From NCBI GenBank assembly GCA_904379015.1, contig CAJFHG010000024.1, forward strand, positions 1 to 38,491: a stretch of 38,491 nt of DNA. The letters run 5' to 3'. The notes below the pieces were generated by a model. It saw only the letters and a list, made by a program, of their open reading frames with translations. It did not search any database and was not told the DNA's origin. The position numbers and the translations under genes are program-made. Positions 18,281 to 38,368 of the stretch are shown piece by piece (position 1 is the first letter of the stretch; each line of letters starts with the position of its first letter). Origin of the DNA: Candidatus Paralachnospira caecorum (GTDB lineage Bacteria > Bacillota > Clostridia > Lachnospirales > Lachnospiraceae).

Positions 18281-18331
18281 AGCATATCGTACGCAGAAAC
18301 ACGCTTTCTTGCAAGCAATTTCTGTCCCATT

Positions 18332-18454
18332 TTCTTCTCTCATCCAGACTGTAACTGTCGGTCCCGGAATCTCACCGGGTCAGCTGCCTTTTATTTACAC
18401 TGGCAGGTCGCGGACTTTTACCGCCGGTGGGGACTTTCACCCCGCCCCGAAGAA
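18332..18454 (-). promoter_or_regulatory. FMN riboswitch (RFN element)
   Basis: On the minus strand the conserved RFN blocks appear in order: TTCTTCGGGGCGGGGTGAAA at the 5' end, CCCCACCGGCGGT, AGTCCGCGACC, GACCCGGTGAGATTCCGGG, ACCGACAGTTACAGTCTGGA, and GAGAGAAG closing P1. All six helices can be traced. It precedes ribU with a terminator in between. Confidence 0.95.
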
Positions 18455-18477
18455 CTGAATTTATTTTTCTGAAAGCC

Positions 18478-32958: not shown

Positions 32959-34707
32959 TTATGATTCGGATGTCTCTTCCTCACCCGGCATCTTCCACGC
33001 ATGATGATCTGTGTGCAGAAGCTCATGGGCTCTGTGGGAAAGAGGCGCTTCCAGATAATCCTGATAGCACTTCTGGACGGACGGATTTTCATGAGAAAAT
33101 CTCAGGTTGTTGACTTTGTCCAGACCATACAGCACTTCGCAGCGCTCTCCGGCCTGTTCTTTGCCGTCCTTGATCGGCTGTCCGCCGCCGCCCGCGCAGC
33201 CGCCGGGACATGCCATGATCTCCACAAAATCATAGGAAACTTTCCCTTTGCGGATGGCGTTCATCAGCTTTCTGGTATTGCCCAGTCCGCTGGCCACCGC
33301 CACCTTCAGATTCTGACCGGCCAGATTGAATTCCGCTTCCTTCCAGCCTTCCATGCCGCGGACCTTTTTGAAGGAGTCCGGATCCGGATTTCTGCCCGTC
33401 ACCAGGTAATAGGCGCTTCTGAGCGCCGCTTCCATCACGCCGCCTGTCGCGCCGAAGATCACGCCCGCGCCGGAACCCACGCCGAGAGGCGAATCGAATT
33501 CTTCTTCCTTCAGATCCGCTGGAATGATATGCTCCGCCCGGATCAGCCGGTCGATCTCCCGGGTCGTCAGGACCAGATCCACATCCTGTCCCGCTCCCGC
33601 GTCATTCATCACCGGAAGGGCGCACTCATGCTTCTTGGCAATGCAGGGCATGATCGAAACGCTGTAAATCCGGGAAGGATCCACATCCAGAAGCTTGGCG
33701 TAATAGCTCTTGGCCACCGCGCCGAACATCTGCTGGGGAGACTTGGCCGTAGAAAGCTGATCGACCATATCCGGGAACTGGGATTTCATGAATCTTACCC
33801 AGCCGGGGCAGCAGGATGTAAACATGGGGAACTTTTCATGTTCTTTATTTTTCAATTTCTCCAGGAATTCGCTTCCCTCTTCCATGATGGTCAGGTCCGC
33901 GCTGAAGTTGGTGTCAAATATGTAGTCAAAACCCATCTGCCGCAGGGCGGATACCAACCGCTTCACAGTGGCAAACTCTCTGGGAAGGCCGAAGGGCTCG
34001 CCCCAGGCCGCCCGCACCGCCGGCGCCACCTGAACAACGGTGATCTTGTCCGGATCTGCCAGAGCGTCCAGCGCCTTCTGGACATCGTCCCGCTCCCGGA
34101 GAGCGCCTACAGGACAGTGGGTGATGCACTGACCGCACAGAGCACAGTCAGATTCGGTAATCTTCCGGTTTTTGGAAACGTCAACCGTTGTCCTGGAACC
34201 AGTTCCCGCCACATCCCAGATATTCAGACCCTGGATCTTGTCGCACACCTGTACGCACCGCATACATTTGATGCATTTTGCCGCGTCCCGGATCAGCGGG
34301 AAATCCTGGGGCCATCTGGACTTGGGAAGCTTCTTCTCAAATGGCAGCTCAAGGATCCCCAGATCATTGGAAATCGTCTGCAGGCTGCAGTTTCCGCTCC
34401 GCACGCAGGTCGCGCACTGACAGTCATGCTGAGACAGGATCAGCTCTACATTGTTTCTCCTGCTCTCTCTCACCTTGGGACTGTTGGTATGGATCACCAT
34501 GCCTTCCCAGACTTTATTATTGCAGGCCGTCACCAGCTTGGCGCAGCCTTCCACCTCTACTACGCACACCCGGCACGCGCCGATCTCATTGATATCCTTC
34601 AAATAGCAGAGGGTCGGAATGAAAATTCCGGCGGATGCCGCCGCATCCAGAATCGTAGTCCCGTCTTTTGCCTGAATCTGTTTTCCGTTGATTACGAGAT
34701 TTACCAT
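32959..34707 (-). CDS. hydA: [FeFe]-hydrogenase, group A
   Basis: The enzyme makes or oxidises H2. The 582-residue protein has the full M3-type modular set. There is an N-terminal [2Fe-2S] domain (Cys34, then GACRVC), and a His-ligated [4Fe-4S] cluster (SQHDCQCATCVRSGNC). Two ferredoxin-like clusters follow (CIKCMRCVQVCD and CALCGQCITHCP). In the H-cluster domain the three signatures are intact: TSCCPGWVRF, MPCIAKKHEC and MACPGGCAGGGGQP. The start overlaps the last bases of the flavoprotein gene, so the two are coupled. Maturases HydE/F/G are not in the window. The flavoprotein partner suggests NAD(P)H or ferredoxin as electron source. Confidence 0.96.
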   Translation of the reverse strand: MVNLVINGKQIQAKDGTTILDAAASAGIFIPTLCYLKDINEIGACRVCVVEVEGCAKLVTACNNKVWEGMVIHTNSPKVRESRRNNVELILSQHDCQCATCVRSGNCSLQTISNDLGILELPFEKKLPKSRWPQDFPLIRDAAKCIKCMRCVQVCDKIQGLNIWDVAGTGSRTTVDVSKNRKITESDCALCGQCITHCPVGALRERDDVQKALDALADPDKITVVQVAPAVRAAWGEPFGLPREFATVKRLVSALRQMGFDYIFDTNFSADLTIMEEGSEFLEKLKNKEHEKFPMFTSCCPGWVRFMKSQFPDMVDQLSTAKSPQQMFGAVAKSYYAKLLDVDPSRIYSVSIMPCIAKKHECALPVMNDAGAGQDVDLVLTTREIDRLIRAEHIIPADLKEEEFDSPLGVGSGAGVIFGATGGVMEAALRSAYYLVTGRNPDPDSFKKVRGMEGWKEAEFNLAGQNLKVAVASGLGNTRKLMNAIRKGKVSYDFVEIMACPGGCAGGGGQPIKDGKEQAGERCEVLYGLDKVNNLRFSHENPSVQKCYQDYLEAPLSHRAHELLHTDHHAWKMPGEEETSES

Positions 34708-36545
34708 TTTTCGATCCTTCCTCCTTTCAGAATGCCAAAGCCGAAATGATCACATCTCAGGCACCGTCTCGCCTCCTGACCGGCCTCTTCACAGGTCATG
34801 CCGCACTCGATCAGCTCAAAATCCTTTGCCCGCTCTGACGCCTGACGTTCTTTCATATTGACGCGGGCGCAGCTCTTTCTGTCGTCCAGCCGTACCTTCG
34901 GAATCTCCACATCCGCAGAAATCGTATGGTTGAATCCAAGGAAATCATCAATATTGGCCGCAGCCACCTTTCCGGCTGCAATGGCTCTGATCACAGTCGC
35001 CGGTCCGGTCACACAGTCGCCGCCTGCAAATACGCCAGTAATATCTTTCGCGTTCACGCCGCTCCAGTTGAGGGCTTCGATGACGCCTTTTCCCCGTTTC
35101 ACGGGAATGCCCTGTTTTTCAAATGCCTTGGATTCAATGCCCTGTCCGATTGCCACGATCACCATATCGCAGGCCAGACGCACATCCTCCTGGGAAGAAT
35201 CCATGGGCACCGGCCTTCCGTTCTTGACCGGTCCGATGATCTGGGGCTTCACCCAGACAGCCGCCACATTGCCGTTCTCATCCTTCTCGATCCTGAGCGG
35301 CGCGTGGAGATCCAGAAGCTCACAGCCCTCGGCTATGGCGCCCTCCACCTCCTCAGGCATGGCGGTCATATCCACGGCCCTCCGCCTGTAGGCAATGCGC
35401 AGCCGCTTCGCGCCAAGGCGGACTGCCGAACGGGCCACGTCCATGGCCACATTTCCGCCGCCGATCACGACAATATCCTTTCCTGTAAAATCAGGCATCT
35501 CATCGTCGCCGATTCCCCGCAGAAGCTCAACTGCGGAAATCACGCCGCCGGCATCCTCCCCCTCGATGCCGATCTTTCTGTCGATGTGAGCGCCGATCGC
35601 GATATAAACCGCGTCATACTCCTTCCTCAGCTCCACAATACTGGGGTTCTCCCCCACCGTTACTCCTGTCTTGACCTTGATCCCAAGGCTCAGGATGTGA
35701 TTGATCTCTCTGTCCAGCTCTTCTCTGGGCAGCCTGTAATTGGGAATGCCGTAGCGGAGCATGCCGCCCAGCTTCTTCCTCTGCTCAAAAATAGTCACTT
35801 CATGTCCCATCAGGGTCAGATAATAAGCCGCGCTGATTCCGCCCGGTCCGCCGCCGATCACCGCCACCTTCTTGCCGGTGGAAACGGCAGGAACGGGAAG
35901 CGGTACATCGCCCGCGTGATCCACCGCGAATCTCTTGAGCCCCCGGATATTCACCGGATCGTCGATCATGGTACGGCGGCAGCGAACCTCGCAGGGATGC
36001 TCGCAGATCAGACCGCACACGGCGGGCAGCGGATTGTCCTTCCGGATCAGCCGCACCGCGTCGCCGTAACGTCCCTCCGCCACCAGGGCAATATAGCCGG
36101 GTATATCCACTCCGGCGGGACATTGGGATACGCAGGGCACCGGCTGGTTCAGCTCCAGTTTGCACCTGCCCCTCAGCACATGTTCTTCAAAATCATCGCG
36201 GAATCCTTTGATCCCCTTCAGAACCATTTTGGCCGCCTCATATCCAATGGCACAGTCTGCTGAATAAAAAATATTTTTTGCTGTCTTTTCGATCAGATCG
36301 ATCGTCTCCAGCGTCCCCTCCCCATCGAGAACCGCTTCCATCAATTCCTGAAGCTGTCCCAGGCCGACACGGCAGGGCACACACTTGCCGCAGGACTGCG
36401 CATGGCACATTTTCAGAAATGATGACGCCAGATCAACCGGACATAATCCGGGCGGACTGGCACTGATACGCCGCTCAAGATCCTTGTAAAGCTCTTCTAC
36501 TGTGGTCTGAGCCTGATTCTGCGTAATGATACTCAATCTGCTCAT
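34701..36545 (-). CDS. NuoF-tail / GltD-like FAD-NAD(P) oxidoreductase, hydrogenase partner
   Basis: A 614-residue electron-transfer protein in three parts. Residues 1-130 match the C-terminal iron-sulfur domain of NuoF/HydB (SCGKCVPCRVG, then FYSADCAIG). Residues 130-210 resemble the GltD/NfnB N-terminal double [4Fe-4S] region (CVSQCPAGVDIPGY, CGLICEHPCEVRCRR). The rest is a GltD-like flavoprotein with VAVIGGGPGGISAA (FAD) and IVVIGGGNVAMDVARSAVRLGAKR (NADPH-type site). A CLRCD motif ends the protein. It has no FMN-binding NuoF core and no NuoE. ATG 36545 follows GGAGGAGG; the frame continues further upstream only through the leader terminator. It shares an operon with hydA and probably passes electrons to it. 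Confidence 0.88.
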   Translation of the reverse strand: MSRLSIITQNQAQTTVEELYKDLERRISASPPGLCPVDLASSFLKMCHAQSCGKCVPCRVGLGQLQELMEAVLDGEGTLETIDLIEKTAKNIFYSADCAIGYEAAKMVLKGIKGFRDDFEEHVLRGRCKLELNQPVPCVSQCPAGVDIPGYIALVAEGRYGDAVRLIRKDNPLPAVCGLICEHPCEVRCRRTMIDDPVNIRGLKRFAVDHAGDVPLPVPAVSTGKKVAVIGGGPGGISAAYYLTLMGHEVTIFEQRKKLGGMLRYGIPNYRLPREELDREINHILSLGIKVKTGVTVGENPSIVELRKEYDAVYIAIGAHIDRKIGIEGEDAGGVISAVELLRGIGDDEMPDFTGKDIVVIGGGNVAMDVARSAVRLGAKRLRIAYRRRAVDMTAMPEEVEGAIAEGCELLDLHAPLRIEKDENGNVAAVWVKPQIIGPVKNGRPVPMDSSQEDVRLACDMVIVAIGQGIESKAFEKQGIPVKRGKGVIEALNWSGVNAKDITGVFAGGDCVTGPATVIRAIAAGKVAAANIDDFLGFNHTISADVEIPKVRLDDRKSCARVNMKERQASERAKDFELIECGMTCEEAGQEARRCLRCDHFGFGILKGGRIEKW

Positions 36546-36589
36546 GATAACCTCCTCCTTCACAACAAAACATCTGCGCACCGTTAGAC

Positions 36590-36626
36590 AAAAAGGGCAG
36601 CATTCGTTTTTCAACAAACACTGCCC
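36590..36626 (-). terminator. Leader terminator in the ZTP riboswitch platform
   Basis: A 14-bp stem (GGGCAGTGTTTGTT with AACGAATGCTGCCC, including G-U pairs) capped by GAAA and followed by TTTTTGTCT on the minus strand, 45 bases before the flavoprotein ATG. Its first four bases (GGGC) are also the 3' side of riboswitch helix P3, so aptamer and terminator exclude each other. Confidence 0.88.
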
Positions 36627-36698
36627 AGACGGTCGGCTGTCTCCGGCTCTCCATCACCCTGTGGTTTTTTCCACGAATCCGTCAGCGATGAAAAGCCG
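36623..36698 (-). promoter_or_regulatory. ZTP (pfl) riboswitch aptamer
   Basis: The minus strand folds as follows. P1 is a 12-bp helix between 36687-36698 and 36644-36655 (CGGCTTTTCATC with GATGGAGAGCCG). Inside it are the CUGACGG segment, the P2 hairpin GTGG-AAAAAA-CCAC and a following AGGG. A short linker leads to P3, GCCGACCGTCTGGGC, where the loop CCGTC pairs with GACGG upstream as the pseudoknot. This matches the architecture and conserved 3' block (GCCGCCCGCCUGGGC) that I know from the Fusobacterium ZTP riboswitch, with compensatory changes in the pseudoknot. The ligand should stabilise P3, block the terminator and turn the hydrogenase operon on. Confidence 0.88.
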
Positions 36699-36711
36699 CT
36701 CTGTTTCCCCA

Positions 36712-36740
36712 AACATATCATATCGTTATTAAATTGTCAA
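36712..36740 (-). promoter_or_regulatory. Promoter of the riboswitch-hydrogenase transcript
   Basis: Minus-strand perfect TTGACA (36735-36740) and TATGTT (36712-36717) with a 17-base spacer. The start point falls just before the aptamer. Confidence 0.8.
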
Positions 36741-37262: not shown

Positions 37263-38093
37263 TTATTTTGACAGATAAGACGCGTTCACATATCCGGTAT
37301 ACTGATCCGCAATGAGGACCAGTACCCATCCATTGTCATATTTCACCAGAACGGACACCAGATTCCCCGCGCTCAGCGCCGGCCACGTCTTCAGAAGCGG
37401 CGCCGAAGCGTCCGGTGCCACTCTCACCGTCAGAGTATCGCCGTCCTGCAGCCCGGCCACCCGCCTTACCGCAAAGGGACTGAACTGCTGTATCACTTTT
37501 CTGGCGTTCCAGATCTCCGCGATCTTCATATCTTCTTCCTCTCCTCCGCTTTCACCGCCCGGCTGGATCTCGCCGCTGCCGAGCAGGAGCCTGACATCAT
37601 TTCTGAAATCATCCATGTTTTTTCCGAACCGGCTGAAATAAGGATCCGGATCACTGTGATTGGAGGCGAATCCCTTCTCATGGGCCTCATGGTGTCCCAA
37701 AACCCGGTCCGCGGTCAGACCATAGGTCCTGCACAGTCCGGCGTAATGTTCTGCGGCATAATTCCAGACCTTCGTGAACTCCTCCTCCGTATCAAGCTCA
37801 CACAGCTCATAGCCGATACAATGACTGTTTCCCCAGCTGGTGCCGATCTGCCAGCAGGCCATGGTATGCGGCGCGAAATGATAAATGCCCGTATCATCGA
37901 TGAATCCATGCACCAGTTTTTCCACTCCGGCCTTGTTCCACCGTTTGTACCATCCGCCCCCGGCGCCGGACCGGGCGCGGATGACCGTAGGGTATACTGC
38001 CGGGCTGTGCACGATCAGATAATCGACACCCGCCAGCTTCTGCCCCGCCAGGTAGCAGTCATTTTTTGTACAGTAAAGAGTCTCCTCACTCAT
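37263..38093 (-). CDS. Phage-type N-acetylmuramoyl-L-alanine amidase (endolysin)
   Basis: A 276-residue cell-wall hydrolase that cuts the amide bond between N-acetylmuramic acid and the stem peptide. The Amidase_2 domain spans about residues 20-175: YLIVHS with zinc ligand His29, HFAPHTMACWQIG, NSHCIGYELCE, and GHHEAHEKGFASNHSDPDPYF with the later ligands. A Gly/Glu-rich linker follows, and an SH3-like wall-binding domain covers 212-276 (LTVRVAPDASAPLLKTW, WVLVLIADQYTGYV). No signal peptide is seen, as expected for a holin-dependent endolysin. Its ATG overlaps the holin stop. Confidence 0.9.
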   Translation of the reverse strand: MSEETLYCTKNDCYLAGQKLAGVDYLIVHSPAVYPTVIRARSGAGGGWYKRWNKAGVEKLVHGFIDDTGIYHFAPHTMACWQIGTSWGNSHCIGYELCELDTEEEFTKVWNYAAEHYAGLCRTYGLTADRVLGHHEAHEKGFASNHSDPDPYFSRFGKNMDDFRNDVRLLLGSGEIQPGGESGGEEEDMKIAEIWNARKVIQQFSPFAVRRVAGLQDGDTLTVRVAPDASAPLLKTWPALSAGNLVSVLVKYDNGWVLVLIADQYTGYVNASYLSK

Positions 38094-38368
38094 TCCGCAT
38101 CCTTCTCCTCCTTTTTCACAGTCAGATTTTTCAGCGCGTCACACAGGCCAATGCTTGCAAGCCCCGAAAACATACCGCCCATCAGAATGCCGGGAGTAAA
38201 ATCCATATTGAGCCACGCGTTCAGGCCGACTCCCAGGACCGCCATGATGAGCGGTATGTACCTGCCCGCTTTATCGGACGGTATCATCTTCTTTAATATA
38301 TATCTCACGCACAGGCAGATGCCGACCACGATCGGCACCGCGTATTCACTTAAAAAGCTGTAATCCAT
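38090..38368 (-). CDS. Phage holin
   Basis: A 92-residue membrane protein with three hydrophobic segments (about 8-26, 37-53 and 60-78) and a charged tail KNLTVKKEEKDAE, the layout of clostridial phage holins. It would form membrane lesions that release the endolysin encoded directly downstream (ATGA overlap). AAAGGAGAGG lies before the ATG. No other phage genes are visible, although the window ends 123 bases upstream. Confidence 0.82.
   Translation of the reverse strand: MDYSFLSEYAVPIVVGICLCVRYILKKMIPSDKAGRYIPLIMAVLGVGLNAWLNMDFTPGILMGGMFSGLASIGLCDALKNLTVKKEEKDAE

Follow-up and report, generated by a model that had tools for sequence, protein, structure and literature searches.

A ZTP riboswitch very probably turns on a GltD-linked [FeFe]-hydrogenase operon in Candidatus Paralachnospira caecorum

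A GltD-linked [FeFe]-hydrogenase operon of Candidatus Paralachnospira caecorum is very probably turned on by a ZTP riboswitch. The element lies in the window, i.e. the whole stretch of 38,491 nt of contig CAJFHG010000024.1 that we analysed, and all features of the leader and its operon are located on the minus strand. That riboswitch control of this operon is genuine we hold with high confidence; the anatomy of the leader and its covariation were computed, and ligand binding and switching are carried over from the riboswitch family.

Scanning the window against 4227 Rfam families yielded a full-length match to RF01750 (ZMP-ZTP, model positions 1-86 of 86) at 36616-36699 (-), with 53.5 bits compared to a gathering score of 39 and an E value of 4.2e-6. 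A covariance model of our own, built from 28 ZTP leaders of non-hydrogenase genes (alignment A3), scored the same aptamer at 53.7 bits. Its parts are readable as a 12-bp P1, a P2 hairpin, P3 with GCC:GGC pairing and the pseudoknot GACGG:CCGUC. Upon free folding the leader formed P1, P2 and P3 at -33.1 kcal/mol (z -2.7), and 3 of 200 shuffled sequences were equally stable.

A sequence scan located a promoter, TTGACA-17-TATGTT with a TG before the -10 element, at 36712-36740 (-), promoter-like sites having a mean of 0.2 per shuffle of the 401-base region. An intrinsic terminator hairpin (GGGCAGTGTTTGTTGAAAAACGAATGCTGCCC + TTTTTGTC; 36595-36626 (-), -20.4 kcal/mol) begins with a GGGC that is at the same time the 3' strand of P3, and it is followed by a T-rich tail (36594-36587 (-)), the putative ribosome site GGAGGAGG (36551-36558 (-)) and the ATG of gene 1 at 36545. 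On the minus strand the promoter comes first, then the aptamer, the terminator that overlaps P3, the ribosome site and gene 1, and a terminator that shares P3 is what the expression platform of a ZTP riboswitch entails. The initial annotation had placed a ZTP (pfl) aptamer at 36590-36740 and had proposed the Rfam scan as a check; its coordinates, the 12-bp P1, P2, P3 and GACGG/CCGTC pseudoknot, the strong terminator having its GGGC in common with P3 and the order from promoter to gene were all confirmed. Together, these features support the assignment of the window leader as a predicted ZTP (pfl) aptamer whose platform is of the ON type and would act by transcription termination.

In studied ZTP riboswitches ZMP stabilises the pseudoknot, which otherwise gives way to the terminator (PMC7337938, PMC10085676). 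By analogy, the invading strand of the terminator would displace P3 and the pseudoknot in the absence of ligand and transcription would stop, and a shortage of 10-formyl-THF would raise ZMP/ZTP, which would bind, lock the pseudoknot and allow the operon to be transcribed. As OFF-type ZTP systems have also been predicted (PMC9481103), the ON direction is one that we infer for this leader.

Gene 1 (34704-36545 (-), stop codon at 34701-34703) codes for a 614-residue flavoprotein, in which domain searches identified a NuoF-type 4Fe-4S domain, Fer4_20 and a GltD/Nfn-like pyridine-nucleotide reductase; it matches PRK12771 of NCBIfam with 621.9 bits (cut-off 516). Residues 137-536 align with the solved chains NfnA (9n5u) and NfnI alpha (5jca), an Nfn chain being the best solved relative and formate-dehydrogenase-type fusions (9bov, 8oh5) ranking second and third. 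Gene 2 (32959-34707 (-)) overlaps gene 1 by 7 nt if the stop codon of gene 1 is counted and by 4 nt if it is not. Its product is a group A [FeFe]-hydrogenase of 582 residues, the H-cluster domain of which scored above cut-off with both PF02906 (315.7 bits) and TIGR02512 (497.4 bits), and it contains TSCCPGW, MPCIAKK and ACPGGC, which we take to be the H-cluster motifs of group A [FeFe]-hydrogenases. HydDB group A2, 'glutamate synthase-linked (putative)', appears to be the nearest label for gene 2; NCBIfam assigns it to 'group A6' (785 bits, cut-off 765). With a GltD-like flavoprotein and an [FeFe]-hydrogenase, the domain searches bear out the flavoprotein-hydrogenase pair that the initial annotation had named as target. 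Elsewhere in the window, a phage-type lysis pair of an Amidase_2/SH3-like and a Phage_holin_5_2 protein lies upstream of the hydrogenase leader at 37263-38368 (-), and an FMN riboswitch (116.5 bits) is found at 18328-18458 (-).

The genome holds four ZTP matches in all. The other three leaders precede fhs (formate-THF ligase, PF01268), purH (PF01808, AICARFT/IMPCHase in Pfam) and a FocA-type formate/nitrite transporter gene (PF01226, Form_Nir_trans). In 61 genomes, including this one, 56 ZTP matches were listed, and among the 55 outside the window a PurH-cluster protein occurs within the first four ORFs in 27, and in nine of these an IMP-cyclohydrolase-like gene comes first (the one searched being PF07826). 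The others lead to FTHFS-cluster proteins (8), DUF1576-cluster proteins (10), a FocA-type transporter (1), the hydrogenase pair (2), a PFL-like protein with an activase-like protein (2) or had no assignment (5); the cluster names rest on one Pfam-searched representative each, with the exception of the activase. On the contigs of the two other hydrogenases of this genome (C46 and C38) there was no ZTP match.

The DUF1576-cluster proteins (one of them Pfam-searched) stand behind ZTP leaders in 10 of the 11 genomes of the genus, i.e. in all but the one studied here (L056, L059, L061, L063, L066, L068, L070, L074, L076 and L078). Four of the ten genes are followed by a small protein, which we take to be DUF1858-like. 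L052 (G000:C2) and L074 (G008:C4) represent the same chromosomal locus, with flanks that are 78.5% and 71% identical, and the gene behind the ZTP leader there codes for a FocA-type formate channel in one species and in the other for a DUF1576 protein. This swap makes the DUF1576 protein a candidate formate permease; the literature searched contains no mention of DUF1576. At L098 (G043:C5:170043) a canonical GCCGACCGUCUGGGC core is located ~35 nt past the end of the aptamer match and the P3 of the match itself is off-consensus, so the match may have taken the wrong P3, or P3 may be doubled.

Through its leader the hydrogenase operon would join the regulon of fhs, purH and the FocA-type formate channel, the leaders and genes of which are observed and their regulation presumed. 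The probable task of gene 1 is electron transfer between NADPH and the hydrogenase. Discharge of NADPH as H2 would then raise NADP+ and pull FolD towards 10-formyl-THF, and this pull would work for a one-carbon unit derived from serine or from imported formate. We tentatively prefer this role via NADP+ and FolD over others; FolD scored above cut-off in 15 of the 18 genomes, this one included, that carry the leader upstream of gene 1 (duplicate records merged). For the whole clade, one may speculate that the GltD-linked [FeFe]-hydrogenases constitute a folate valve, where ZTP-induced H2 release drains NADPH and FolD turns to 10-formyl-THF. If true, the ZTP alarmone response would include H2 metabolism as a branch, and this group of hydrogenases would gain a physiological role.

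The main rival reverses the direction, so that under one-carbon stress H2 uptake would supply NAD(P)H for folate reduction, glutamate and purines. Hydrogen in the gut could favour uptake on thermodynamic grounds, and gene 1 is GltD-like. The entry for HydDB group A2 reads 'Undetermined role. May couple H2 oxidation to NAD reduction', with reductant for glutamate synthase (PMC5037454), which is in line with uptake. More NADPH, however, would push FolD away from 10-formyl-THF, the compound that ZTP reports missing, and in the ORF list no further same-strand gene lies directly 3' of the hydrogenase; the adjacent gene encodes an ABC transporter and is on the opposite strand. We regard H2 uptake as rather doubtful and retain NADPH discharge as the preferred reading.

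Covariation was analysed with 19 hydrogenase leaders, 16 of them distinct, comprising 19 pairs and 301 cells; P2 was left out of the count because its columns were not aligned. Pairing was found in 94.4% of the cells, 13 of the 19 pairs, including the pseudoknot, had changed on both sides, and the 500 shuffles stayed lower on every measure. Since related sequences can beat shuffles without structure, versions slid by 1-3 columns served as further control, and at most 50% of their cells were paired. The changes on both sides are found in P1 and the pseudoknot, P3 hardly varying. The pseudoknot occurs as GACGG:CCGUC, GGCGA:UCGCC, GACGU:ACGUC and GAUGG:CCAUC; some rows contain wobble pairs, and L128 and L147 have a single mismatch each. 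A hairpin that starts within the GGGC of P3 and is followed by a T-rich tail was present in 15 of the 16 leaders folded; judged by eye, L201 has a different, larger terminator hairpin.

We also compared the ligand contacts. U16 and U70 were counted among the contacts of the F. ulcerans ZTP riboswitch. Further contacts named for this riboswitch are G17, G63, C69 and G71 (PMC12304844). If mapped with a constant offset onto the F. ulcerans numbering, the contact bases are identical in all 19 hydrogenase leaders.

Within the genus gene 1 is present in 3 of 11 genomes and preceded by the ZTP leader in all three, i.e. in the window and in two further species. Named genomes were scanned for relatives of gene 1, and of the 255 obtained the best 80 were used; the hydrogenase gene stands behind gene 1 in 77 of these loci, the remaining three being near contig ends. 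With our own model the aptamer was detected upstream of gene 1 in 17 of the 80 loci and in the window. Named carriers are Ca. Choladousia, Ca. Paralachnospira, Ca. Pullilachnospira, Blautia spp., uncultured Clostridia and Ca. Merdiplasma; the Blautia spp. include Blautia sp. An81 (L145), presumably a cultured chicken-gut isolate.

Among 397 sampled genomes of the family 122 contain gene 1 (136 matches). A second set of 96 gene-1 loci combined 80 of these matches with a further 16 loci, 13 of which are likewise among the 136 (93 in total), the other three being the same-genus G001, and G052 and G049 from outside the family; G157 and G279, which are close to a contig start, and 41 lower-ranked matches were left out. 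This set was scanned for the leader before gene 1 alone, whatever gene follows, and our model detected the aptamer in eight loci, all with a gene-1 identity of at least 87%, and none in the other 88, which fall below 87%. A leader could be missed at L282, with only 45 bases upstream, and at L267 and L270, with about 500, and the named non-carriers L158, L182, L195 and L199 have <400 bases upstream. Identity alone is not decisive, as 14 named loci of the same clade, with a gene 1 that is ~87-89% identical to that of the window, lack a match. The absence of the leader from 63 of the 80 named and 88 of the 96 gene-1 loci indicates that the enzyme does not need it. Homologous operons had been proposed as a test of the initial annotation, and the outcome is divided: the element is present in such operons (17 of 80 named, 8 of 96 gene-1 loci), but confined to one clade plus one outlier. 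We also looked for ZTP leaders near other [FeFe]-hydrogenases and found none in 20 of 22 loci; with flanks of ~1.5 kb this test is weak, as it missed the window locus (L109) and that of G001 (L107), too, whose known leaders lie farther off.

In a gene-1 tree of 81 rows, calculated by a quick method and without L205, 17 of the 18 carriers fall into one clade of 31 rows (SH-aLRT 99), which includes a subclade of 13 rows without the ZTP leader. By eye, L130 has a decayed-looking copy. The tree requires four changes of the ZTP label, three of them forced by well-supported branches, and the simplest reading would be a single gain followed by losses and, in addition, a second, separate gain, which Ca. 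Merdiplasma L201 looks like; the placement of L201 is unsure owing to its long branch. L161 belongs to the same MAG as L134, and as the L161 leader is identical to that of the Blautia loci L144-L146, L161 may be contamination. In the leaderless subclade the hydrogenase alignments of L131-L133, L135-L140, L142 and L169 exceed the matched part of the window protein by ~40-100 positions, suggesting insertions.

This distribution allows for neutral promoter capture, by which a ZTP leader was duplicated to a site before the operon and now confers a response without benefit: the leader is limited to one clade and L201, and some members of that clade lack it or have a decayed copy. However, pairs in P1 and the pseudoknot changed on both sides, terminators are conserved across the clade, ligand contacts are unchanged, and L201 represents a second apparent gain. 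Neutral capture is improbable.

A variant pfl-fold aptamer with a changed ligand we consider very unlikely. The base after GCCG is A in 8, G in 9 and U in 2 of the 19 hydrogenase leaders as compared to A in all 28 other leaders of A3 (which represent 28 of the 56 Rfam matches), and this varying base would be the sole hint of an aptamer variant. It is opposed by the mapped contact positions, every one of which is unchanged, and by the conformation of the residue after the contact G, which reportedly varies among ZTP riboswitches (PMC12304844). Moreover, the Rfam scores of the three hydrogenase leaders of the genus (53.5, 53.5 and 46.7 bits) are within the span of 37.2-68.1 bits that the other 53 matches cover.

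Searches of this genome gave no match to PF00384, the molybdopterin family that holds the formate dehydrogenases, and no PFL-like enzyme (PF02901), leaving the hydrogenase with no visible partner that makes or breaks formate. The proposal of the initial annotation that the operon serves to adjust formate thus fails in this genome; its NAD(P)H branch may still hold, FolD being present and gene 1 being of GltD/Nfn type by sequence. PF00384 was absent from all 18 carrier genomes, this one included, many of the assemblies being incomplete, and the same search was positive for 11 of 14 control genomes as well as for 4 of 24 non-carriers with gene 1; the difference between carriers and non-carriers (0 of 18 vs. 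4 of 24) can be called suggestive only. A PFL-like enzyme is present in 13 of the 18 carriers as compared to 20 of the 24 non-carriers with gene 1. The idea that the carriers as a group are devoid of formate sources was thus not upheld, and the setting of this genome, with no visible formate-making enzyme, is not general. A hydrogenase supplying a formate dehydrogenase, by which H2 + CO2 would be turned into formate or back and ZTP would adjust formate supply, is extremely improbable and for this genome, which is 95.7% complete, close to refuted, since PF00384 is lacking in the carriers while the search works in controls and non-carriers, even if fhs and the formate channel carry ZTP leaders in the same genome and ~47-52%-identical gene-1 paralogues occur near PF00384 genes in three non-carrier genomes. 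These paralogues lie within ~1 kb of the PF00384 matches (G032:C43, G326:C1 and G168:C17); hydrogenases and formate dehydrogenases may both be partners of the GltD-like module.

A conserved ZTP switch would tell when the cell wants this hydrogenase, namely when 10-formyl-THF is short, and would tie H2 metabolism to an alarmone of one-carbon stress. It would also widen the ZTP regulon to redox enzymes, and to DUF1576 proteins as candidates for formate channels. For the glutamate-synthase-linked [FeFe]-hydrogenases, to which HydDB gives an 'undetermined role', the ZTP wiring provides a testable lead, e.g. in Blautia sp. An81.

In P1, P3, the pseudoknot, the mapped contact bases and the invasion of P3 by an ON-type terminator, the leader resembles the ZTP riboswitches of RF01750, from which it differs in its target. 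The pfl targets named by Weinberg 2010 are purH, fhs, pfl, glyA, folD and other genes of purine synthesis and THF conversion, and one published pfl riboswitch precedes gcvH; as anticipated by the initial annotation, an [FeFe]-hydrogenase operon is outside that list. The usual, albeit not defining, purine or one-carbon target is not found here, and any one-carbon link is indirect. In the literature searched, which did not extend to Kim et al. 2015 and its supplements, there is no report of a ZTP/pfl riboswitch with a hydrogenase, and the pairing is likely, not certainly, new. The tandem Wco riboswitches are alike in preceding a hydrogenase gene, but their aptamer and their ligand, the tungsten cofactor, are different (PMC9481103). 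Formate-hydrogen lyase and hydrogen-dependent CO2 reductase have a formate dehydrogenase partner, which is missing in this genome and 17 further carriers. Gene 1 aligns with the GltD-like subunit of Nfn-type NADPH:ferredoxin oxidoreductase, but here a NuoF-type cluster domain is attached, the partner is a hydrogenase, and no other gene belongs directly to the operon. Like HydDB group A2 (glutamate-synthase-linked), the operon combines a hydrogenase of group A with a partner gene of GltD type; that group is recognised by the gene following the catalytic subunit, which has a GltD but no NuoF domain (PMC5037454), whereas here the GltD-type partner is encoded upstream and carries only the C-terminal cluster domain of NuoF.
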